IMG/VR virus record: IMGVR_UViG_3300042346_001123
Location: 1 to 38,825 of that record
Direction: 5' to 3' (one strand)
Length of the DNA stretch: 38,825 nt
Origin: a virus
Under the pieces are notes generated by a model that was not told where the DNA came from, ran no database searches, and saw only the letters and a program-made list of their open reading frames with translations. A program made the position numbers and the translations under genes. This document shows positions 3,274 to 14,406 of the stretch, piece after piece; the stretch's first letter is position 1, and each line of letters opens with the position of its first letter.

Positions 3274-4947
3274 ATGTCTAATTTTAGCGATAATGTGCGA
3301 ACAAAGGAGTTTAAGCTCATTCTATCCTCGGAACAAGAGCGAACCCTAGAAGATTGGATGCTAGTCTGTAAGTGGGTTTGGAATCGTTCACTGGGATTGA
3401 TAGAGGAATTTAACGAGTGGAACCCCTACGATAGAATATCAAAGTCTAACGTCCCCGCTACTCCCCTGCAACGATATGATCGCAAGCTCAAGCAATGGGT
3501 ACGAATTGAGATCCCAGATTGGAAGATGGGGATTGAACGAGTTGAGAAGAAAAGGGGATTCATCCATCCCGTTGCTATTGATGAGAATAGTCCGGTTATT
3601 GACTCACTAGATTCTAAAAAATCAGTGCTATACGGATTTCTAAAAATGTTTGGACATCAACACCACAAAGATCGGATCGTGACTTATTTAATTAGAGGTG
3701 AGGAACGAAAAGTCAATTTCACCGACTGCCCTGCAAAATTTATCCAAGGGGTAGCGCATGAACTCTCGAAGGCTTGGGAGGGATTTCTGGCGGGTCGCCA
3801 TAGTCGTCCCCGATTCAAAACAGCCAAAGATAAGGTGATGACTTTGATCCACTATAACGCCAGGGATCTAGGGGTTAAGGATGGTAAAATTAATATTCCT
3901 AAGTTGGGTTATATTGAAGTAATTGGGCTTGATAAGCGGTGGTATGGTTGCGATTTTAACCCGATGAAAATTTGCAAAAAAGCGTCGGGGTGGTATATAC
4001 AATTAACTGCGTCCGTCCCTGTCAAACAAGCCAAGAAGACAGGGTTATGTTGTGGAATTGACCCCGGACATCAGTTTGTTATGGCATTGGATAATGGTCA
4101 CACTATTGAGGCTGCACAACCATTGAAACGTGGGTTAAAACGTTTAAGAAAAATGCAGCAACAATTATCTCGCAAGTATCGAATGAACGGGGGGAAGACT
4201 AAGAACTGGGAGAAACTTAACAATAAGATTGCTAAACTTCACGAAAAGATCGCCCGTCACCGTCGATCTTTTAACCATTGGCATTCGACTAATTTAATTA
4301 ATTGGTTTGATGTGATTTTTGTAGAAGATTATAAACCCGCCAATGTTTACCGAAAAGCTAAAGCTAAGGCAAAACTAGATACAGAGGGGGCTCCAATGGT
4401 AGCTGCAAATGGTACGGCTATCTATGAGAAGAACAATCAGAAACGCAAGCGGGGAAGTAATAGAACAGGAAATGATGTGGCTATCGGTCAGGCTATTGAT
4501 CTATTAGAAACCAAGGGAAAGGAACACGGAAAGTTAGTAATTCGGGTCGATAATTGGGGGACTACTTTATGTTGTGCAAAGTGTGGACACCAAGAGAAGA
4601 AAAAACTATCACAACGAACTCACAAATGCTCTAATTGTGGCTATACTGTGGCTCGTGATGTTAACTCAGGACAGAATATTAAACTGAAAGGTTTGGCTCA
4701 AATGGCAATCAATCAAGGTGTGGAGTTATCCGATAATTTCTGGTATAAATTCTTGATTGATAAAAATTCGGCAACCCCTAGCGGTTCTAAGAAGGCGACC
4801 AAGAAAAAGCCTAAAAAGTCAGACACCGTAATCATTCCAGATGATTTGTTTAAAAATGGGGTTCACGAATTTTTGATCGGTGAAACTGCCAAAACTCGTG
4901 CTATAATAAATGAAATGAGCTTAGGTAATTTCGATAGAAACGCCTGA
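3274..4947 (+). CDS. Compact Cas12 / TnpB-type RuvC nuclease (solitary type V-U-like CRISPR effector)
   Basis: 557 residues. An N-terminal TnpB-like helical region (about 1-185) ends in the family block WEGFLAGRHSRPRFK (168-182). The split RuvC domain has D263 (CCGIDPG), E351 (IFVEDY) and D462 (ARDVNSGQNI), so it looks catalytically intact. A zinc ribbon, C434-x2-C437 and C452-x2-C455, sits between RuvC II and III. A C-terminal extension of about 85 residues is Lys-rich (SKKATKKKPKKS). IS605-type TnpB is usually nearer 400 residues. No TnpA, Cas1, Cas2 or other cas gene is near, and a CRISPR array starts 20 bases after the stop. The start codon has no good ribosome-binding site and abuts a repeat-like sequence. 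Exact subtype (for example V-U2) is not assignable from sequence alone. Confidence 0.85.
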   Translation: MSNFSDNVRTKEFKLILSSEQERTLEDWMLVCKWVWNRSLGLIEEFNEWNPYDRISKSNVPATPLQRYDRKLKQWVRIEIPDWKMGIERVEKKRGFIHPVAIDENSPVIDSLDSKKSVLYGFLKMFGHQHHKDRIVTYLIRGEERKVNFTDCPAKFIQGVAHELSKAWEGFLAGRHSRPRFKTAKDKVMTLIHYNARDLGVKDGKINIPKLGYIEVIGLDKRWYGCDFNPMKICKKASGWYIQLTASVPVKQAKKTGLCCGIDPGHQFVMALDNGHTIEAAQPLKRGLKRLRKMQQQLSRKYRMNGGKTKNWEKLNNKIAKLHEKIARHRRSFNHWHSTNLINWFDVIFVEDYKPANVYRKAKAKAKLDTEGAPMVAANGTAIYEKNNQKRKRGSNRTGNDVAIGQAIDLLETKGKEHGKLVIRVDNWGTTLCCAKCGHQEKKKLSQRTHKCSNCGYTVARDVNSGQNIKLKGLAQMAINQGVELSDNFWYKFLIDKNSATPSGSKKATKKKPKKSDTVIIPDDLFKNGVHEFLIGETAKTRAIINEMSLGNFDRNA

Positions 4948-4950
4948 AAC
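4923..4950 (+). repeat. Possible degenerate CRISPR repeat overlapping the effector stop codon
   Basis: AGGTAATT... ...CCTGAAAC has the same outer sequence and nearly the same spacing as AGGTGATT...GGATTGAAAC in the array repeats. If real, the last effector codons run through an eroded repeat. The match in the middle is poor, so this is tentative. Confidence 0.25.
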
Positions 4951-4966
4951 ACTTGCGGATTAAGCT

Positions 4967-6137
4967 CTCGCAATAGGTGATTATCTGGTTTAAGGATTGA
5001 AACCTCCCTCCTGGGGTGTGTAGGATTGGTATTAATCCGACTCGCAATAGGTGATTATCTGGTTTAAGGATTGAAACTTATTGAATCCTGTGCGATCGCC
5101 ACACTTTCGGGCTTTGATCTCGCAATAGGTGATTATCTGGTTTAAGGATTGAAACAGAAGATAATTTGAGTCCCCCCTTTACTTTTGAATTGATCTCGCA
5201 ATAGGTGATTATCTGGTTTAAGGATTGAAACACAACGGCTCCCATATTGAGTTTCAAATACTTTTCCCTCGCAATAGGTGATTATCTGGTTTAAGGATTG
5301 AAACGCGACTGTTCAACACCGGAATTAAATATAATTCCCGCTCGCAATAGGTGATTATCTGGTTTAAGGATTGAAACTTTCCCATAACTTATCCGGCGGT
5401 TGCTGTTTAGAGAACTCGCAATAGGTGATTATCTGGTTTAAGGATTGAAACTCAAAACCCATACACAGAGGGAGTGCCGGGTAAGTCGCTCGCAATAGGT
5501 GATTGCCTGTTTTAAGGATTGAAACAACGGGTGGGAATCCATTTTTATTAATGATTTAATCAAGCTCGCAATAGGTGATTATCTGGTTTAAGGATTGAAA
5601 CCAGAAAATCAGATTGATTGTATCATAATTGACCCGTTAGATTTCTCGCAATAGGTGATTGCCTGTTTTAAGAATTGAAACATCCATGTTGAATAGTTGG
5701 ATTGCTTGACAACAATACTCGCAATAGGTGATTGCCTGTTTTAAGAATTGAAACTTTAACCCTTCTACAGCATCACTGGATGATATTAAGCCTCGCAATA
5801 GGTGATTGCCTGTTTTAAGAATTGAAACTATATCAGCGATATGGCCGGGCTTTATGGGTATTGCTTGGAGCACTCGCAATAGGTGATTGCCTGTTTTAAG
5901 GATTGAAACATATCGAGATTAATTCATTTGAAAATACTCCCATTGCTGCTCGCAATAGGTGATTGCCTGTTTTAAGGATTGAAACGATTGAATTTGAGCT
6001 ACCATGTCATTAAGTCCTTTAACTATTTCTCGCAATAGGTGATTACCTGTTTTAAGGATTGAAACGATTGGAGTCGGTTGGGAAGCCTTGCAAACGTTAC
6101 CTCGCAATAGGTGATTGCCTGTTTTAAGGATTGAAAC
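4967..6137 (+). CRISPR. CRISPR array, 16 repeats of 37 bp and 15 spacers of 35-44 bp
   Basis: Repeats start at 4967, 5041, 5119, 5195, 5268, 5341, 5415, 5489, 5565, 5645, 5718, 5792, 5873, 5949, 6029 and 6101. All begin CTCGCAATAGGTGATT and end in the common motif ATTGAAAC. The middle varies: ATTATCTGGTTTAAGG in repeats 1-7 and 9, ATTGCCTGTTTTAAGG in 8, 13, 14 and 16, the same with AAGAATTG in 10-12, and ATTACCTG in 15. Orientation by the GAAAC end is rightward, the same as the effector, leaving only 19 bases for a leader. Spacer 2 contains HIP1, pointing to cyanobacterial targets. Short open frames across the array are artefacts of the repeats. Confidence 0.97.
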
Positions 6138-6170
6138 AGGAGATAGGGGTATTTTTCAACCCCGTTGTTT

Positions 6171-6593
6171 TTACCGACCAAGGGACGCTCTAGCATCACT
6201 CAGTATCTTGTTCATCTGGGCTTCCGTAATATCAAAGTCGGGTGTGTTGGGTCTGATGCGCCCGTTGCTGAATGCTTTCCCTGCGTAGCTGCGAATTACG
6301 GGGATTGTAGCGGGTCGGGGTCGGGTTTGGGTTGTTACAGGTCGCAAGGTTTTGTATGCGTTCATCCACTTATTAGTCTTGACCGTTGCCCAATTCCCGT
6401 TAAGGACTACACCCTTCTCGGTACGGATGAAATGGACTGTTTGGCCGTTTTCCATTAATTCAGTCCAACCATAGCGGATTTCAATCGTCCCATCTGGGTG
6501 AACCATTTTGATTGTGTCGATTGTGATTCCGTCAAACGTTGAGGTGTAGCTTGAGATGATTTCGGTTGTGATTGTGGCGATTTGAGCTACCAT
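6171..6593 (-). CDS. Unknown phage protein related to a CRISPR-targeted gene
   Basis: 140 residues, starting MVAQIATITTEI; N-terminal half beta-rich (GTIEIRYGWTELMENGQTVHF), C-terminal half basic and Pro/Arg-rich (TTQTRPRPATIPVIRSYAGK) ending in a helix. No domain recognised. Its stop lies 34 bases from the last CRISPR repeat. Spacer 14 read on the minus strand contains the start of a homologous gene (ATGGTAGCTCAAAT, encoding MVAQI), and spacer 15 resembles sequence about 35-70 bases upstream of this start. The gene family therefore occurs in elements this array targets. A GGATCTAAATATC leader precedes the ATG, giving a weak ribosome-binding site. Confidence 0.7.
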   Translation of the reverse strand: MVAQIATITTEIISSYTSTFDGITIDTIKMVHPDGTIEIRYGWTELMENGQTVHFIRTEKGVVLNGNWATVKTNKWMNAYKTLRPVTTQTRPRPATIPVIRSYAGKAFSNGRIRPNTPDFDITEAQMNKILSDARASLGR

Positions 6594-6664
6594 GATATTT
6601 AGATCCTTAGTTGGGTTGGGTGGAGTCGGTTGGGTGTCCCTGGTAAGTTGCTCGACCGACTTTG

Positions 6665-6812
6665 TTTTACTTCTATGTTTTACATCTTAACCGATTTGTT
6701 TTACTTTGTCTAGTGGTTTTACTTTAGTATTACTTATAGGTTTATACTGTTTTACAGAATTACAATCAATTTTACTTATATGTCTTACTATTCGTTTTAC
6801 ATCGTGCTACAC
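6665..6812. promoter_or_regulatory. Repeated TTTTAC boxes: operator or centromere-like array
   Basis: TTTTAC occurs at 6665, 6678, 6699, 6717, 6750, 6770 and 6795, with one-base variants at 6728 (TATTAC) and 6783 (TCTTAC). Spacings cluster near 11-13 and 18-22 bases, close to one and two helical turns. All are on the + strand, upstream of a ribbon-helix-helix gene, and a likely -10 (TACACT, 6807-6812) ends the region. Ribbon-helix-helix proteins bind such short arrays as operators or partition sites; replication iterons are the alternative. Confidence 0.6.
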
Positions 6813-7311: not shown

Positions 7312-8139
7312 TTACTCACCGATAATCATTTGGCGATCGCCTTTTTGATTTGCCCATAATTCCCGAACCTCGTCAACCAACTCCGCAGGGATATAGTCGG
7401 TTTGGACTGGACGCATTGCTTTAGAAATCAGGTGATCTTTACCGCAGGATTCTAACCACTTCTGAAATTCCTTTCCAGTTTTAAACTTTAATTCTTTGCC
7501 AAATTGAGCCAATGACTTCCCACGAAATACAGCTAACTGTTTTCCGTCTTCATTCATGACAACCGATTCAAACTGGGTTTCAGTTTCTCTCACCACCGCT
7601 TCACGACGACCCTGGATGAGTGCCAAGGTTCCCGCCCCATGAAGTGAAACAATGGCAGAACCGGACTCCAAAACAAGTCGTTGATCTCTCATGCTGTTGG
7701 CTTGAGCTTCGGCAATTCTGACTTGTAACCGGAGAAATTCTAGCTCATCATTTTGTTGGGGGATGACGGTTTCAGCTTCACGGGTTTTGATAACGAAGTA
7801 GGCTTGAGCTTGTGCAATTTCCGGTTTGCGGGGGTCGCCGTTCATCGCAACTAAATAACAGGCATATCGGGATAGCTTACAATCCTCTTGAGGGCGACCC
7901 GAAGTTTTTGCCACCTCCGGCAAAAAGTCTTTACTGACTGAGTTTCCGGCATTTTGTTGGGATAGAATAGCTCGGTCAATTGCATCAGCAAATCGTCGGT
8001 ATTGCTTATATCCCAACAGTCCCATTAACTCCCGTGCCATCCAATACTCGCAGCCTTCACGGTCAACGCGCTTAATGGAGTCAAAAGGGGATTTGGATTG
8101 ATTGTGGTCTTGATTGCCAGACAATGCTAAACTAGACAT
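7312..8139 (-). CDS. DinD-like BRO-N domain protein
   Basis: 275 residues. Residues about 18-125 closely follow E. coli DinD: FDSIKRVDREGCEYWMAREL, YRRFADAIDRA, NAGNSVSKDF, then KLSRYACYLVAMNGDPRKPE and AYFVIKTREAE. A coiled-coil segment (FLRLQVRIAEAQANSMRDQR) follows, then a C-terminal domain (LAQFGKELKFKTGKEFQKWLES). DinD is an SOS-induced protein reported to inhibit RecA filaments; phage relatives act as antirepressors. Which role applies here is unknown. The start has a strong AAAGGAGGG site, which lies in the loop and arm of a small hairpin (AACCC/GGGTT). Confidence 0.85.
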   Translation of the reverse strand: MSSLALSGNQDHNQSKSPFDSIKRVDREGCEYWMARELMGLLGYKQYRRFADAIDRAILSQQNAGNSVSKDFLPEVAKTSGRPQEDCKLSRYACYLVAMNGDPRKPEIAQAQAYFVIKTREAETVIPQQNDELEFLRLQVRIAEAQANSMRDQRLVLESGSAIVSLHGAGTLALIQGRREAVVRETETQFESVVMNEDGKQLAVFRGKSLAQFGKELKFKTGKEFQKWLESCGKDHLISKAMRPVQTDYIPAELVDEVRELWANQKGDRQMIIGE

Positions 8140-8229
8140 AGGAAACCCTCCTTTGGGTTGTTATAAGTAATTTTTGAGAAAAGCTGGAGACTTACTACTT
8201 CCTCCGGCTTTTCTCATTCCTATATTATA
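8140..8229 (-). promoter_or_regulatory. DinD promoter with long 5'-terminal hairpin
   Basis: Minus-strand TATAAT at 8224-8229, then after 8 bases a 14-bp stem with one mismatch (8202-8215 pairing with 8176-8189, GAGAAAAGC on one arm). Immediately before the gene, AACCC-AAAGGA-GGGTT forms a second hairpin containing the Shine-Dalgarno sequence. The arrangement parallels the BRO and KilA-N leaders though the sequence differs. Confidence 0.6.
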
Positions 8230-8331
8230 CACCAAATTAACAGGAGCTTGAATAAAAAACGGGGTATTTAGCAAGTAAATAATATTAAAATTGTGCGGTG
8301 GTAAATTATATTAAATACCCTACAATAATCC

Positions 8332-8850
8332 CTAGATATCCCCATTATCTTCATCTTCTAAACTTTGGATATGGTCAAATACTACGCCCGTTTGATAGAT
8401 TTGTTCATGGAGTGTGGCAATGGCTTTAACCGTCTCTACTGCCATCCTTCCGTGAATATGCGTCCCTGATTTGGTTAACTTGCCACAGGCTTTCATTGGG
8501 TCATCGCTCTTGGATGCTTGACTATAAGCCTTTGCACTAACAGCAATAGAAGATGATGCGATTACGTCTAACCCACGCAAATAAACCTCCATCCTTTTGA
8601 TTCCATCCTCAAGATCCTTTTTATACTTCTCTCTATTTTCCTCAATCATTGATTTAATTGCCTCCATTTTTTCGTTAATAATCTCTCGTTTCCTTTCTTC
8701 CCAAATGGGTTGTTTTTTCCAGTGTCTTATTATCCCTTCTGAAACTCCAATCTGACTGGCAACCTCTCTGTTGGACAGGGATGGGTTGTCAAGAAATGCC
8801 TTAACAGCATCTTTGATCAGATGTGCCTTACCTCCCTTTATTTCGCAACC
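8332..8850 (-). pseudogene. HTH protein (terminase-small-subunit-like) truncated at its 5' end
   Basis: The frame stays open from the stop at 8332 up to 8850, where an in-frame TAA is formed by the first three bases of the 59-bp direct repeat (8851). The region above the first ATG (8667) encodes a convincing helix-turn-helix: LSNREVASQIGVSEGIIRHW, then WEERKREIINEK, as in terminase small subunits and phage HTH proteins. No ATG or GTG precedes the HTH, so the original start is lost at the repeat junction. A 111-residue protein without the HTH could still start at 8667; CTG at about 8815 after GGGAGGT is a remote alternative. The C-terminal half is helical with no recognised domain. Confidence 0.6.
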
Positions 8851-8909
8851 TTACGCAATAACAACACTTTAAAGTTAACATAGTTGAAAACATTGCTACA
8901 ACTTAAAAT
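8851..8909 (+). repeat. 59-bp direct repeat, copy 1, with ParB-gene promoter
   Basis: Identical over 59 bases to 12749-12807, both ending at the ATG of a ParB-domain gene. The copies are 3,898 bases apart. The segment is A/T-rich, contains TTGAAA and TAAAAT promoter-like words and no Shine-Dalgarno sequence. It marks the left end of the modification cassette. Confidence 0.9.
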
Positions 8910-9473
8910 ATGAGTAAACCTAAAATTACTGAGACTGATATCAGCAAATTGACTCCCGATCCGAATAACGCACGGAAAAGAACACCATTGTCGGCAAGCG
9001 TTATTAGGAAATCGTTAGAACAGTTTGGGGCAGCTCGAAGTATTGTTGTCGATGAAAATGACGTGATTCGGGCGGGTAATGGAACCTTTGAGGAGGCGGG
9101 TCAATTAGGGATTGAGAAGGTTGTCACCATTGAGGTAGATGGTAATACTATTGTTGCAGTCAAAAGGAGAGGATTGACTGAGGAACAATGGAAAAAGTAT
9201 GCGATCGCTGATAATACGGCTTCTGATTTTAGTACATGGGATTATGAAATATTGGAGGAGTTGGCTCAAGAGGTAGATTATTCTGAGTTTTTCCCTGATG
9301 ATAAATTGAATGAATTGTTAGAGTCATTGGGTAAAGGTGAAAGTTTTGGCAATACTGAACCCAAGGAAGATGGAAACCCAGAATCACCAGAAGATTTTAA
9401 GGAATATGGAGAAGATATCGAAACCGAACACTGTTGCCCTAAATGTGGTTACAAATGGTCTGGAGGTAAATAA
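8910..9473 (+). CDS. ParB/sulfiredoxin-domain protein heading the DNA-modification operon
   Basis: 187 residues. The first ~140 are a phage-type ParB N-terminal domain: ISKLTPDPNNARKR, SASVIRKSLEQFG, RAGNGTFEEAGQLGI and YAIADNTASDFSTWD. The C-terminus ends CCPKCGYKWSGGK, half of a zinc ribbon, and replaces the methyltransferase domain present in the paralogue at 12808. Such ParB domains are common partners of phage DNA methyltransferases and DNA-hypermodification enzymes. The stop codon is directly followed by the methyltransferase ATG, so the four genes 8910-12596 form one operon. There is no Shine-Dalgarno before the start. Confidence 0.85.
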   Translation: MSKPKITETDISKLTPDPNNARKRTPLSASVIRKSLEQFGAARSIVVDENDVIRAGNGTFEEAGQLGIEKVVTIEVDGNTIVAVKRRGLTEEQWKKYAIADNTASDFSTWDYEILEELAQEVDYSEFFPDDKLNELLESLGKGESFGNTEPKEDGNPESPEDFKEYGEDIETEHCCPKCGYKWSGGK

Positions 9474-10547
9474 ATGAATACCAAACCCATTTATCGTGTT
9501 CCTCTAATGAAAGAGATAGAAGAAATCCCCTGGAACGGGTTTAATGTTGTTTCTACCTTTAGTGGTACTGGTGGCTCATGTCTTGGCTATCGGATGGCTG
9601 GTTATCGGGTGTTGTGGGCTAATGAATTTATTCCTGCGGCTCAGGATTCTTATAAAGCAAATCACCCGAATTCCATCCTTGATAGGAGAGATATTCGGTT
9701 GGTACAGCCAGAAGACATTTTAAGAGCAACTGGCTTAGGTGTTGGCGAAATTGACATATTCGATGGTTCGCCCCCGTGTGCAGCTTTTTCTAAAGCAGGT
9801 AAACGTGATAAAGGATGGGGTGTCGTAAAGAAATATTCAGATACCACGCAACGGGTTGACGATTTGTTTTTTGAATACACCAGACTAATCCAAGGAACAA
9901 AGCCTAAAGTATTTGTTGCTGAAAATGTAGCAGGTTTAGTTACAGGTGTTGCTAAAGGTTATTTTTTAGAGATACTGAGAACTTTAAAAGCCTGTGGCTA
10001 CAAAGTTAAGTGTAAAGTTTTAGATGCTCAGTGGTTAGGTGTTCCACAGGCCAGGCAACGGACTATTTTTATAGGGATTAGAGACGATATTAACTTGGAT
10101 ATCGTCTACCCTATACCATGCAAAAAACAATACACTGTTAGGGATGCAATATCAAATCTAGGGATTGACAATAGTTTGTTTTATAAACTTCCTAAAGGTA
10201 AAATGTTAGATGTTTATATGAACACAAGAGATGACGAGAAAGGTAGATTTGAAGATGCACATTACAGATTGTACGGCAAGGAGTCTTATTTTAATTTTGC
10301 GAGAGCTTGTTGGGATTTACCGTCTAGGACTATTCTACAAAGTAGCCAGGGTATATGTCACCCAGAGATACCCAGAACATTTACTATTTCAGAATTAAAG
10401 CGTATCTGCGCTTTCCCAGATGACTTTATATTATTAGGTTCATTTGCTAAACAATGGGAACGACTGGGGCGTGCTGTTCCCCCTGTTATGATGTCACATA
10501 TAGCCAAAACAATTCAATTAGAAATACTAGAAAAATGTGTGGATTAG
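9474..10547 (+). CDS. DNA (cytosine-5) methyltransferase with altered motif X; predicted Cx-SAM-dependent carboxymethyltransferase
   Basis: 357 residues with the C5-methyltransferase motifs in order: motif I VSTFSGTGGSCLG (26-38), motif IV GSPPCAAFS with catalytic C102, motif VI AENV (149-152), motif VIII QARQRTIFIG, the TRD, motif IX region and motif X GRAVPPV (332-338). The motif X Asn of the normal GNxVPP is Arg (R333). That loop contacts the bound cofactor, and a basic residue there would suit the extra carboxylate of carboxy-SAM. The downstream CmoA homologue supports this. Catalysis otherwise looks intact, so ordinary 5-methylcytosine formation remains the alternative. The next gene overlaps its last 13 bases. 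Confidence 0.85.
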   Translation: MNTKPIYRVPLMKEIEEIPWNGFNVVSTFSGTGGSCLGYRMAGYRVLWANEFIPAAQDSYKANHPNSILDRRDIRLVQPEDILRATGLGVGEIDIFDGSPPCAAFSKAGKRDKGWGVVKKYSDTTQRVDDLFFEYTRLIQGTKPKVFVAENVAGLVTGVAKGYFLEILRTLKACGYKVKCKVLDAQWLGVPQARQRTIFIGIRDDINLDIVYPIPCKKQYTVRDAISNLGIDNSLFYKLPKGKMLDVYMNTRDDEKGRFEDAHYRLYGKESYFNFARACWDLPSRTILQSSQGICHPEIPRTFTISELKRICAFPDDFILLGSFAKQWERLGRAVPPVMMSHIAKTIQLEILEKCVD

Positions 10548-11890
10548 CGGGTACATATAAATCCAGTGTAGATGTAGAGTCTATGCTTCTTAAAATAATA
10601 CATAGGGGGCGAGATGACCAAGGCATTCACAAGCATGGCGATACTGTTCATGGTCACGTTAGGCTGTCTTTACTTGATTTAAGTTCGGCATCTAAACAGC
10701 CTTTTCTCTTGAATAATTCCACTCTTTCATTTAATGGTGAGATATGGAATTATAGAGATATAAAAAAGAAGTTACAAGACGATGGTTGTAGATTTAACAC
10801 AACAGGCGACACCGAAGTATTGAGTCAATTTTTAGATATTTATGGTGTTTCGCAGTTAAATCAACTAGAGGGAATGTTTGCTTTTGCGTGGAGTAAGGAG
10901 CAGGAACATTGGCTTGTGAGAGACCGTTTTGGTGAAATACCTTTGTATCTGGCAAAAACGAATAAAGGGTATATCTGGGCATCTGAAAGAAAAGCATTTC
11001 CTAGTGGTGTTATACCTGTTTCCGTTCCTCCGGGCTATGCTTTTAATCTAGTAAAAGGCGAGTGGTTTCAATGGTATAAACTACCAGGAACAACACCACA
11101 GCAAAATATATTAGATTGCTTGAGTAGGGGTGTAGAACAAAGATTAAATGCCGATGCTCCGGTCTGCTGTCTTATATCGGGCGGATTAGATAGCGTCTTA
11201 GTTCTGCAAATAGCAAAGTCTATAAATAAAAACATCGTAGCTTTCACGGCAAAAATGCGTAACGATTCAAATGATTTACTAGCAGCCAGAAGGGTATGCA
11301 GTGAGTACGAAATTCAATTAATAGAAGTGCCAGTATCTATTGATTTGGATTCCTTAACTAACGCAGCTAAAGTAATAGAAATTAACAGCAAAGCTCAAAT
11401 AGAGATAGCTTCACTGTGCCTACCACTGGCACAAAGGATAAGAGCAGAAGGTTTTAAGTCTTGCTTATCTGGTGAAGCTGCCGATGAGCTTTTTGGCGGT
11501 TATGGTAACTTCTGTATTCAGGCATCCAAAAGTACGAATACAGAAGTTATATCTCTTAGAAAAAGTCAATTAGCAAAAATGTCAAGGGGTAATTTTGTTA
11601 GGTGCAATAAAGCATTTATGTATGGTGGCGTTGAGTGTAGATTGCCATTTATGGATGTTAATTTAGTTGAATATGCCATAAACCTAAACCTCTCGCAATC
11701 ACCAGCAAATAAGAAACTACTGAAATCCGCCGCAGCTAAACTACTGCCTAAGTGGGTGATATCCAGAGTTAAGGATACCTTTCAAGGGGGTAGTGGAGTC
11801 TCTACCTGGACAGAGGAAAATATAGCATCTCCAATAAAATTTTACAACAATGAACTAAAGAAAACTTTTGGATACTTACCCAAGGACTAA
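10535..11890 (+). CDS. AsnB-type glutamine-dependent amidotransferase
   Basis: 451 residues from the ATG at 10535; this start puts the nucleophilic Cys at position 2 (MCGLAG), as the class II amidotransferase mechanism demands, and rules out the earlier in-frame start. The glutaminase half has HRGRDDQG, FNGEIWNY (66-73) and GDTEVL. The synthetase half has the ATP PP-loop SGGLDS (215-220) and LSGEAADELFGGY (311-323). Both active sites look intact. Bacterial AsnB is usually above 550 residues, so this is a compact relative. The family converts a carboxylate to an amide via AMP. In this operon a carboxymethylated base in DNA is the likely acceptor (inference); free aspartate is the conventional one. 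Confidence 0.85.
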   Translation: MCGLAGTYKSSVDVESMLLKIIHRGRDDQGIHKHGDTVHGHVRLSLLDLSSASKQPFLLNNSTLSFNGEIWNYRDIKKKLQDDGCRFNTTGDTEVLSQFLDIYGVSQLNQLEGMFAFAWSKEQEHWLVRDRFGEIPLYLAKTNKGYIWASERKAFPSGVIPVSVPPGYAFNLVKGEWFQWYKLPGTTPQQNILDCLSRGVEQRLNADAPVCCLISGGLDSVLVLQIAKSINKNIVAFTAKMRNDSNDLLAARRVCSEYEIQLIEVPVSIDLDSLTNAAKVIEINSKAQIEIASLCLPLAQRIRAEGFKSCLSGEAADELFGGYGNFCIQASKSTNTEVISLRKSQLAKMSRGNFVRCNKAFMYGGVECRLPFMDVNLVEYAINLNLSQSPANKKLLKSAAAKLLPKWVISRVKDTFQGGSGVSTWTEENIASPIKFYNNELKKTFGYLPKD

Positions 11891-11891
11891 T

Positions 11892-12596
11892 ATGAATAAT
11901 TATCACGTTCCATCTAAAGACAAATGGGAGTTTGACGAATCGGTAACAGATATTTTTGATGATATGTTAGCCCGTTCGATTCCCCAATACGAGGTAATGA
12001 GAAAAGCTGTTTCAAGTATTGCTTGTGAGTTTATGCAGTCTTCTGGTTGTGTAGTCGATATAGGCTGTTCAAGAGGTGAGCAAATAGCTCGTTTAATTCA
12101 ATCCTATGGCGCGGGTTGTCACTATCACGGAATAGAAATTAGTGAGCCGATGATTGGTGCAGCTAAAGACAAGTTCAAAAACCATCATTGTGTCAAATTA
12201 CATGAATTGGATTTGAGAAAAGATTGGTTAACCATTGAAAACATATCTGTCACTTTGTCTGTTTTAACCTTGCAATTTATTCCGATTGAATACAGGTTAG
12301 GACTACTTAAAAAAATCTATGATTCAACTCGAAAAGGCGGGTGTTTTATCTTGGTTGAAAAAGTTATTGGTGGGTCTGCTGATATTGACTCACTATTAAC
12401 AAATCAATACTACAATTTAAAACACCAGAATGGTTACTCTGTCTATGAGATAGAAAGAAAGCGTTTAAGTCTTGAGGGTGTTTTAGTTCCTGTAACAGCT
12501 AATTGGAATGAAGAAATGCTAAAACTATCTGGTTTCACTGAAGTTGATTGTTTTTGGCGATGGATGAATTTTGTTGGATGGGTTGCTATCAAATAA
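11892..12596 (+). CDS. cmoA: CmoA-like carboxy-SAM synthase
   Basis: 234 residues from the ATG at 11892, one base after the AsnB stop. It follows E. coli CmoA along its length: WEFDESVTDIFDDMLARSIP (12-31) against W.FDE.V...F.DM..RS.P, SAM motif VVDIGCSRGEQ (54-64), LTLQFIPIEYRLGLLKKIYD, GGCFILVEK, GYSVYEIERKR (181-191), and NFVGWVAIK at the end. R191 aligns with E. coli CmoA Arg199, the residue that contacts the carboxylate of Cx-SAM. CmoA uses prephenate and SAM. No CmoB is present, so tRNA wobble modification is not the obvious use. A Cx-SAM supply for the adjacent C5 enzyme is the favoured role. Confidence 0.85.
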   Translation: MNNYHVPSKDKWEFDESVTDIFDDMLARSIPQYEVMRKAVSSIACEFMQSSGCVVDIGCSRGEQIARLIQSYGAGCHYHGIEISEPMIGAAKDKFKNHHCVKLHELDLRKDWLTIENISVTLSVLTLQFIPIEYRLGLLKKIYDSTRKGGCFILVEKVIGGSADIDSLLTNQYYNLKHQNGYSVYEIERKRLSLEGVLVPVTANWNEEMLKLSGFTEVDCFWRWMNFVGWVAIK

Positions 12597-12616
12597 ACCT
12601 ATAGGAATTGAACCTA

Positions 12617-12644
12617 AATTAATCCGGCGGTTGCCGGATTAATT
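12617..12644. terminator. Hairpin after the modification operon
   Basis: AATTAATCCGG and CCGGATTAATT form an 11-bp perfect stem with a 6-base loop. It is stacked directly against the longer terminator at 12644-12683. Confidence 0.5.
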
Positions 12645-12683
12645 ATCAAAAAGCCTAGGGGTTGAATCCTAGGCTTTTTGATA
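12644..12683. terminator. Strong terminator of the modification operon
   Basis: A perfect 16-bp stem (TATCAAAAAGCCTAGG with its complement) and 8-base loop, giving a U-run in each direction. It closes the 8910-12596 operon before the second ParB promoter. Confidence 0.8.
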
Positions 12684-12748
12684 GTAATGAGTCTTAATTC
12701 TTTCGTATCATTTTAATCACAACACCCGCGCTGGCTAGATATGCGGGG

Positions 12749-12807
12749 TTACGCAATAACAACACTTTAAAGTTAACATAGTTGAAAACATTGCTACAAC
12801 TTAAAAT
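12749..12807 (+). repeat. 59-bp direct repeat, copy 2, with ParB-gene promoter
   Basis: Identical to 8851-8909. The identity drops just after the ATG, where the coding sequences differ by many synonymous changes. The upstream non-coding part is thus better conserved than the gene, which suggests selection on a control element or recent recombination. Confidence 0.9.
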
Positions 12808-14406
12808 ATGAGTAAGCCCAAAATTACTGAGACTGATATCTCTAAACTAACTCCCGATCCTAACAATGCCCGCAAAAGAACGCCCTTATCAGCAAGCGTT
12901 ATTAGGAAATCAATTGAACAATTCGGGATGACTCGGAGTATTGTCCTTGATGAGAATGGGGTGATTTTAGCGGGTAACGGGGCGTTTGAGGAGGCGGGTC
13001 AATTAGGTATTGAAAGGGTGATCGTCGTCGAGACAACAGGTAATGAGATAGTGGCGGTGAAACGGACTAATCTTACTGCTGAACAGAAAACTCAATATGC
13101 GATCGCTGATAATACGGCATCTGATTTCTCGACTTGGGACTTTGATATTTTGAGTGAGTTAACTCAGGAAGTTGATCTATCTGAGTTTTTCCCTGATGAT
13201 AAATTAAATGAATTATTGGAACAGTTGGGTAAAGGTGAAAGTTTTGGAGTTACTGAACAAGGGGAAGAAAACGAGGAAGAAATTGCTGAACTTCTGGATA
13301 AGGTAGATGAGATTGAGTCACGGGTTAAGTTGGGTGAAATATGGCAGTTAGGACGACATAAAATATGCGCGGGTGATTCTACTATCGAGAGGAATGTTAG
13401 GGCTTTGTTGGGGGATAGCAAGGCGGTATTAGTCCATGCAGATCCACCTTATGGAATGGGTAAGGAAAAAGATGGAGTTCTGAATGATAATCTCTACCGA
13501 GAAAAGTTAGATGATTTTCAGATGAAATGGATCAGGGCTTGTCGTGGGAATGTAGAAGATAATGGCAGTTTTTATATTTGGGGTAATGCTGAGGATTTGT
13601 GGCGGTTATGGTATTCGGGCGGGTTGAAAGATAGTGAGAGGTTGACTTTTAGGAATGAGATTGTTTGGGATAAAGCAAATGCGTCAGGATTGTATGATGG
13701 GAACGGCATAGGATCATCTATAGGAAGACAGTTTGCTAACATCTCAGAACGCTGTTTATTTTATATGGTTGGTGAGCAGGGATTTAATAATAATGCTGAT
13801 AATTATTGGGAAGGATGGGAACCAATCAGGCTATACCTTGATAATGAGCGCAAGAAATCAGGGTTAACAACGGCACAATGTAACAAGATTTGTGGCAAAC
13901 AGAATATGACTCAATCTGCTTTTACAAAAGGTGGTTTTAGACTGATTTTAGAGGAGGATTATACTGCTTTACGGAGCGCAGCAAAAGGCGAAGCCTTTAA
14001 ACGGGAATATGACGAACTTAAAAAGGAATATGACAAACTTAAAAAGGAATATGACAAACTTAAAAAGGAATATTATGCCACCCGTGCCTATTTCAATAAT
14101 ACCCACGAAAACATGACCGATGTATGGGAATATCCCAGAGTTCAGGGTGAGGAGCGATGGGGTCACGCCACACCCAAACCCGTTGATATGATTGCCAGAA
14201 TTTATAAAAGTAGTTCACCCGATGATGGGATTATTTATTCACCATTTTTAGGGTCTGGGACGGATATTATTGCTGGTGAGAAATCAGGAGGCGATCGCAC
14301 CGTCGCAGGATTCGAGTTATCACCCGCATATTGTGAAATTATCTGTCAAAGATTTTCCAAACTAACAGGAATTGAGCCTAAACTAATCGGAAAATTGCCA
14401 GATTAA
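12808..14406 (+). CDS. ParB-domain fused to DNA N6-adenine/N4-cytosine methyltransferase
   Basis: 532 residues. Residues 1-145 are a ParB domain paralogous to 8910-9473. LGRHKICAGDS (181-191) and the catalytic DPPY (212-215) come next, and the SAM motif FLGSGT (480-485) is near the C-terminus, so motif order IV before I places it in the beta class. The central target-recognition part contains a run of KKEYDKL heptads (about 400-422) encoded by tandem 21-bp repeats. The DPPY tetrad does not separate adenine from cytosine as target. No restriction enzyme is adjacent, so it is an orphan protective or regulatory methylase. No Shine-Dalgarno is seen; the promoter is in the 59-bp repeat. Confidence 0.9.
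   Translation: MSKPKITETDISKLTPDPNNARKRTPLSASVIRKSIEQFGMTRSIVLDENGVILAGNGAFEEAGQLGIERVIVVETTGNEIVAVKRTNLTAEQKTQYAIADNTASDFSTWDFDILSELTQEVDLSEFFPDDKLNELLEQLGKGESFGVTEQGEENEEEIAELLDKVDEIESRVKLGEIWQLGRHKICAGDSTIERNVRALLGDSKAVLVHADPPYGMGKEKDGVLNDNLYREKLDDFQMKWIRACRGNVEDNGSFYIWGNAEDLWRLWYSGGLKDSERLTFRNEIVWDKANASGLYDGNGIGSSIGRQFANISERCLFYMVGEQGFNNNADNYWEGWEPIRLYLDNERKKSGLTTAQCNKICGKQNMTQSAFTKGGFRLILEEDYTALRSAAKGEAFKREYDELKKEYDKLKKEYDKLKKEYYATRAYFNNTHENMTDVWEYPRVQGEERWGHATPKPVDMIARIYKSSSPDDGIIYSPFLGSGTDIIAGEKSGGDRTVAGFELSPAYCEIICQRFSKLTGIEPKLIGKLPD
14005..14073 (+). repeat. Tandem 21-bp coding repeats in the methyltransferase
   Basis: Three units of GAATATGACAAACTTAAAAA-type sequence (14005-14025, 14026-14046, 14047-14067) plus a partial fourth; unit 1 differs by one base. 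Each encodes one heptad EYDKLKK, so copy-number changes keep the frame and lengthen a coiled coil. Confidence 0.9.

Follow-up and report, generated by a model that had tools for sequence, protein, structure and literature searches.

Motif X arginine of a predicted cytosine carboxymethyltransferase and its candidate hypermodification cassette in a PaV-LD-type cyanophage

The window, i.e. the whole stretch of 38,825 nucleotides analysed here (IMG/VR record IMGVR_UViG_3300042346_001123), belongs to a PaV-LD-type cyanophage and with a probability of roughly 0.87 encodes a three-enzyme cassette for likely protective DNA hypermodification, in which CmoA would provide Cx-SAM, CmoX would form 5cxmC and CmoY would convert it into 5-carbamoylmethylcytosine. 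The genes concerned follow one another in this order:

8910..9473, + strand: ParB-like protein of only 187 aa, its gene immediately preceding that of CmoX; nearly repeats the N-terminal part encoded at 12808-14406
9474..10547, + strand: CmoX, predicted DNA cytosine C5-carboxymethyltransferase, 357 aa (PF00145; best solved match 8YF3)
10535..11890, + strand: CmoY, glutamine-amidotransferase/asparagine-synthetase type, 451 aa, starting MCGLAG (PF00733, PF13522, PF13537)
11892..12596, + strand: CmoA, predicted Cx-SAM synthase, 234 aa from the ATG at 11892, open frame from 11868 (TIGR00740, YecO 1IM8, E. coli CmoA 4GEK)
12808..14406, + strand: ParB-like protein fused to an N6/N4 DNA methyltransferase, 532 aa (PF01555, PaV-LD comparison)

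In the proposed pathway, SAM and prephenate would be turned into Cx-SAM by CmoA. With Arg333 probably held by Glu329, CmoX would take Cx-SAM and transfer its carboxymethyl group to cytosine C5 at the target sequence of the enzyme. CmoY would then activate the carboxylate with ATP and amidate it with glutamine-derived ammonia, and the likely benefit would be shielding of phage DNA from host restriction. The sequence itself shows the genes, the arginine, its alignment to the cofactor pocket and its association with CmoA. Cx-SAM use and 5cxmC formation are proposed by analogy with a characterised relative of CmoX; amidation and protection of the DNA are suggested by domain content.

Motif X arginine of CmoX

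Profile searches assign the product of the cmoX frame to C5 cytosine methyltransferases (PF00145, E 1.1e-55; TIGR00675, E 5.3e-51), and its SPPC (C102), ENV and QARQR motifs are all intact. Following parts of the protein are referred to below:

9768..9779, + strand: motif IV SPPC with catalytic Cys102, aligned to S95-C98 of SpCmoX (Cys98)
10101..10373, + strand: target-recognition region, residues about 210-300, swapped among close relatives according to identity comparison
10458..10460, + strand: Glu329, four residues N-terminal of R333
10467..10484, + strand: motif X G-R-A-V-P-P, residues 332-337, with Arg333 (10470-10472) replacing Asn

Motif X was read correctly in the original prediction: codons ggg cgt gct gtt ccc cct encode G332-R333-A334-V335-P336-P337. 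In an alignment of relatives, the R333 column holds Arg in 150 of 154 rows, the remaining four being two gapped rows, one Ala (at a frame break) and one Asn. R333 is thus neither a chance substitution nor a sequencing slip.

The closest solved structure is 8YF3 (E 6.3e-68), that of SpCmoX from Synechococcus phage S-B43, which is 41-42% identical to CmoX of the window. Compared residue by residue, R333 corresponds to R350 of 8YF3, and the M.HaeIII residue aligned with R333 is the motif X Asn. The HMMER match of HhaI to the window protein stops at residue 226, before motif X; for this enzyme, Asn-304 is given as the counterpart of Arg-350 of SpCmoX (PMC12783734). Owing to the alignment with 8YF3, the position of R333 in the cofactor pocket, as claimed by the original prediction, is settled. 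By equivalence with R350 of SpCmoX, Arg333 would be the contact for the Cx-SAM carboxylate.

In their paper of 7 December 2025 (Nat Commun; PMC12783734), Yang et al. describe SpCmoX as an enzyme that carboxymethylates DNA cytosine at C5, with Cx-SAM made by phage CmoA as donor. Arg-350 contacts the carboxymethyl group of Cx-SAM in the crystal structure; the wild type uses Cx-SAM only, and R350N accepts neither SAM nor Cx-SAM. Arg-350 is likened there to the engineered M.MpeI N374K, which is the Asn-to-Lys mutant that the original prediction named as a motif X change. As in the window protein, a basic residue stands in the place of the motif X Asn; in the mutant it makes the C5 enzyme use Cx-SAM. 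In contrast, M.MpeI N374K is a laboratory mutant with Lys and a CG target, whereas the window carries natural Arg with Glu329 as partner. The Cx-SAM specificity switch proposed from the window sequence is therefore supported by the biochemistry and structure of SpCmoX; the hypothesis is right but already in print. As IMG/VR was screened in that work for SPPC together with R350, giving 5,615 candidates (PMC12783734), the window protein may already be among them.

In the literature found on carboxymethylcytosine, CmoX and phage CmoA, there was no second paper on this pathway, nor was 5-carbamoylmethylcytosine reported as a DNA base. The pathway has been known since December 2025; what the window locus contributes is an end product that is likely to differ, and signs of repeated evolution. 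New here are the tracking of CmoA by Arg, the separate origin of Arg in GFPC-type enzymes, the return to Asn in two phages and the Glu329 partner.

Arginine, CmoA and the history of the change

Association of Arg with CmoA was followed in several sets of loci. A score of >60 bits with at least one of five phage CmoA queries was counted as presence of CmoA, and motif X was read from alignment columns; pattern matching missed or misread ARAVPP, CRAVPP and GRTVTI rows. Among the best 80 of 189 closest viral relatives, 79 have Arg, all of them with CmoA, and one is cut off before motif X. Since these are close relatives, the other sets weigh more.

A scan of bacterial genomes, of which the best 80 of 560 loci were considered, relied on patterns outside motif X (D[IV][LF][DE]GSPPC and [KQR]PKVF[VI]xEN) and was built on a narrower alignment, the mixed one having been too diverse. 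These 80 loci comprise 17 Arg, 18 Asn, 44 Met and one unreadable motif X. Of the 17 Arg-type genes, 16 have CmoA nearby, as against none of the 62 Asn- or Met-type genes; L216 was read across a split frame, and in L207 CmoA is about 5 kb away. The sole Arg-type locus without CmoA among these best 80 of 560 is a 6 kb contig (L205).

The search from an Asn-type relative gave 19 tallied loci (the query L169 and 18 fetched; L047, Arg with CmoA, was left out as it was already in the viral set). Asn without CmoA was found in 16 of them, Arg with CmoA in one (L184), Arg without CmoA in one (L186) and an unreadable motif in one. L186 is a 27 kb record that starts inside the cmoX gene, so that Arg without CmoA was seen only in two cut-off records, L186 and L205. 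When 30 whole records were searched, none of the 17 with an Asn-type enzyme gave a CmoA, whereas eight of the nine with an Arg-type enzyme did; among the other four, L163 (Ser) has CmoA and L185, L192 and L195, with unreadable motif X, are without it. Searching for CmoA first yielded 80 loci, 62 with Arg, one with Ser (L163) and 17 in which no C5 enzyme lies within the stretch, many of the latter being short contigs and some not; this set is biased, as its loci were found through CmoA. Both L163 and these 17 loci count against the proposed pathway. Judged from sequence and neighbourhood, Arg is linked with CmoA across loci, and the co-occurrence with CmoA in other genomes, which the original prediction proposed to check, is borne out.

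These counts also bear on the view that CmoX is an ordinary 5-methylcytosine methyltransferase with a neutral Arg, CmoA serving host tRNA modification. Although CmoX shares its fold and catalytic motifs with enzymes that use SAM, CmoA accompanies Arg-type and not Asn- or Met-type enzymes, and SpCmoX with the same Arg uses Cx-SAM only (PMC12783734). We regard this view as very improbable and retain the carboxymethylation pathway.

Besides Arg333, a second residue distinguishes the groups. In a comparison of 70 SPPC Arg with 24 SPPC Asn representatives (L187 and L188 set aside), position 329 separates the two groups as well as 333 does: Glu is found in 70/70 of the former and 0/24 of the latter, 19/24 of which have Ala. 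Taking all representatives, Glu329 occurs in 76/76 Arg rows, including four GFPC and one SYPC, in 0/34 Met rows and in 1/29 Asn rows, the exception being the revertant L188. We infer from these alignments that Glu329 would orient Arg333. Position 75 is Arg in 69/70 SPPC Arg rows, but it is no mark of Cx-SAM, because 21/34 Met rows share it. Present in separate C5 lineages, the Glu-Arg pair offers a two-residue mark for carboxymethyltransferases beyond the published SPPC filter.

To follow the history of the change, 142 of 256 loci were kept as representatives at 80% identity. The 120-row tree drops rows with unreadable motif X, rows of <=200 aa and all but 14 Met-type rows. With motif X columns removed, the division into Arg and the rest needs four changes on this tree and the starred branches force four; a 42-row tree agrees, a single clade of all Arg rows being rejected by the AU test (p-AU 5.6e-65). 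Motif X changed at least four times on the tree. In independent pairs, CmoA goes in the same direction as Arg in 3 or 4 of 4 and never in the opposite one (mean 3.8 over 200 random pairings), a number of pairs that cannot reach significance.

All SPPC Arg rows fall into a single group (98/94), and two Asn rows from phages, L187 and L188, are nested inside a 100/100 subgroup of this clade. Neither CmoA nor Asn-synthase was found in their records, which measure 72 and 70 kb and may be incomplete, and the two are best read as a return from Arg to Asn. Such natural reversals make a ready comparison of cofactor choice; they are useful because R350N, the one change made in the laboratory, merely abolished activity (PMC12783734).

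Another group of Arg enzymes is of the GFPC type with motif X GRTVTI or GRTVSI (L106, L107, L108, L189, L190, L191, L193, L153 and L127). CmoA lies directly downstream of its members, and a search of six of the records (L106, L127, L153, L190, L191 and L193) detected no Asn-synthase. On the tree, the group adjoins the Asn enzyme L194, in whose record no CmoA was found. Based on sequence, neighbourhood and tree, GFPC-type Arg is taken to have arisen separately, and these enzymes fall outside the published SPPC filter. L149 (SYPC, GRGIVV), on a long branch, may be a third separate case. We give an even chance to the wider reading that Cx-SAM use by DNA cytosine enzymes was gained at least twice (in SPPC and in GFPC, perhaps also SYPC, with the same Arg and Glu four residues earlier) and lost at least once (in the two SPPC-clade phages back to Asn, without CmoA or ligase), and that 5-carbamoylmethylcytosine is the end product of the window.

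Several loci deserve separate mention. At L163:5140-6865, CmoA overlaps a TPVC-type C5 enzyme with Ser in motif X (CSGVPS), the pair being flanked by DNA polymerase A on one side and a gene resembling pol III beta on the other; a C5 gene can therefore adjoin CmoA without Arg. CmoA-only loci were examined for other acceptor enzymes with no clear candidate emerging. One of these loci, L139, has CmoA at 8010-8720 and an N6/N4 DNA methyltransferase at 4948-6669, about 1.3 kb upstream, no C5 enzyme being found within 8 kb; the N6/N4 enzyme is a possible non-C5 carboxymethyltransferase. The Met-type clade consists of SPPC C5 enzymes with GMSVPP (44 of the best 80 of 560; L224, L227-L238 and others), often with a ParB-like neighbour and, among these best 80, never with CmoA. 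Two Verrucomicrobia carry multiple CmoX + CmoA loci, FR_27 three (L200, L201 and L202) and H5_VER1 two (L199 and L203), whose best segments share 69-70% identity with the query. Finally, CmoX at L186:1-2064 contains an apparent intein exactly at the catalytic SPPC cysteine.

CmoY, CmoA and the predicted end product

The start of cmoY (10535) overlaps the end of cmoX (10547). Its product possesses a glutamine amidotransferase domain with N-terminal Cys and an Asn-synthase domain, and the SGGLDS ATP site is kept. Across 37 aligned rows, 36 carry Cys2 and one is gapped there, and Lys286, Gln288 and Glu290 are found in 37/37. The last three residues belong to the following stretch:

11375..11404, + strand: putative acceptor-site stretch I-E-I-N-S-K-A-Q-I-E of CmoY (alignment of 37 rows, comparison with E. 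coli AsnB)

Here, at residues 281-290, the E. coli AsnB stretch, which we take to be the aspartate-binding site, is replaced by an invariant K-x-Q-x-E. With this replacement and a score below the TIGR01536 asparagine synthase cut-off (259.9 of 267.1 bits), CmoY does not match asparagine synthetase B on either count. The asparagine-synthetase-like gene adjoining cmoX probably acts on the new base, a point missing from the original prediction. As CmoY of the window is of the glutamine-amidotransferase type, 5-carbamoylmethylcytosine is the predicted product.

Two kinds of CmoY are known from the published system. SpCmoY of S-B43 attaches glycine, and a second, amidotransferase-type cluster (A0A7T0Q3R0) is suggested by the authors to use glutamine-derived ammonia; no soluble enzyme of this type was obtained by them (PMC12783734). 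S-B43 resembles the window in having the three enzyme kinds adjoining and Arg in motif X, but its gene order differs and its CmoY, of 271 aa, has no amidotransferase domain. The amidotransferase-type cluster shares with the window glutamine amidotransferase and Asn-synthase domains beside CmoX and CmoA. Its representative A0A7T0Q3R0 presumably resembles gp124 of Streptomyces phage TurkishDelight. The TurkishDelight order ParB-CmoX-amidotransferase-CmoA is that of the window, and its amidotransferase protein is 32% identical to CmoY of the window. Among the 79 Arg-type loci of the best 80 of 189 viral relatives, amidotransferase CmoY occurs in 29 and CmoY of the S-B43 type in 25, the other 25 having none in the stretch compared. 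The window locus belongs to the amidotransferase branch, and PaV-LD, a close relative of its phage, is free of the cassette.

Alternatively, with CmoX and CmoA acting as proposed, CmoY might ligate another amine (glycine or a different one) or be an asparagine synthetase, leaving 5cxmC or an amino-acid amide as product. Glycine ligation by SpCmoY, a relative without the amidotransferase domain (PMC12783734), speaks for the former, and the TIGR01536 score just below cut-off for the latter. However, the N-terminal Cys and amidotransferase domain, needless for glycine ligation, are kept; the invariant K-x-Q-x-E in place of the AsnB stretch and the overlap with cmoX also speak against these alternatives. 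We consider these alternatives rather unlikely and prefer the amide, 5-carbamoylmethylcytosine.

At 159.4 bits, CmoA of the window stays short of the curated cut-off of TIGR00740 (193.3 bits), which is nevertheless by far its best family, and all nine CmoA-matching records of the whole-record search are likewise under the cut-off. The column of E. coli CmoA Arg199, which we had assumed to mark Cx-SAM synthases, holds Arg in the window protein. It was rejected as a discriminator because the active SpCmoA carries Glu there.

In close relatives (L011/L097 and L012), CmoA is broken into two frames, the cassettes being otherwise intact. Such splitting would fit a decaying, inactive remnant. On the contrary, all three frames of the window are open with active-site residues intact, and a protein-identical CmoX occurs in a second record (L002), so we hold decay to be highly unlikely and a working cassette to be the better reading.

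The 187-aa ParB-like protein alone is without a Pfam match. Its gene is present in 73 of the 79 Arg-type loci (best 80 of 189 viral relatives), and 1,660 ParBc genes are given for CmoX contigs in PMC12783734. The ParB-methyltransferase fusion at 12808-14406 is probably outside the carboxymethyl pathway.

The cassette in PaV-LD-type phages

Planktothrix phage PaV-LD (NC_016564) shares many blocks with the window, at 72-99% DNA identity. The window is a cyanophage related to PaV-LD with an inserted ParB-CmoX-CmoY-CmoA cassette, which is flanked by two repeat copies:

8851..9360, + strand: left ParB repeat copy, 79% identical to 12749-13258
12749..13258, + strand: right ParB repeat copy; PaV-LD has a single copy

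Whereas the cassette lies between two ParB copies in the window, PaV-LD has a lone ParB-methyltransferase gene and no CmoX cassette at this site. Window positions 9371-12748 have no counterpart in the PaV-LD stretch compared, and no CmoA was found in PaV-LD. Its own C5 enzyme has Asn in motif X (IGNAVPP). PaV-LD ORF080R, suspected of being a methyltransferase, proved on examination not to be one.

The cassette is present in seven related contigs compared, with CmoY missing in L008. The right ParB copy of the window matches the ParB upstream of CmoX in the seven contigs and not a second downstream copy; L011 has an additional ParB copy upstream. Residues 1-60 of CmoX are 97-100% identical to those of the window in the six relatives compared, and CmoY is 94-95% identical within this close-relative group. 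On the other hand, in five of the six relatives identity drops to 13-47% per 30-residue block at residues about 210-300. The target-recognition region has thus been exchanged among close CmoX relatives. CmoX of L002 is identical to that of the window throughout.

Elsewhere in the window, a piece of ~115 bases is repeated several times within positions 5340-6137, whereas the PaV-LD stretch compared has it once. Positions 3274-4947 encode a TnpB-family protein near the C2c8 (type V) model, with 296.4 of 350 bits.
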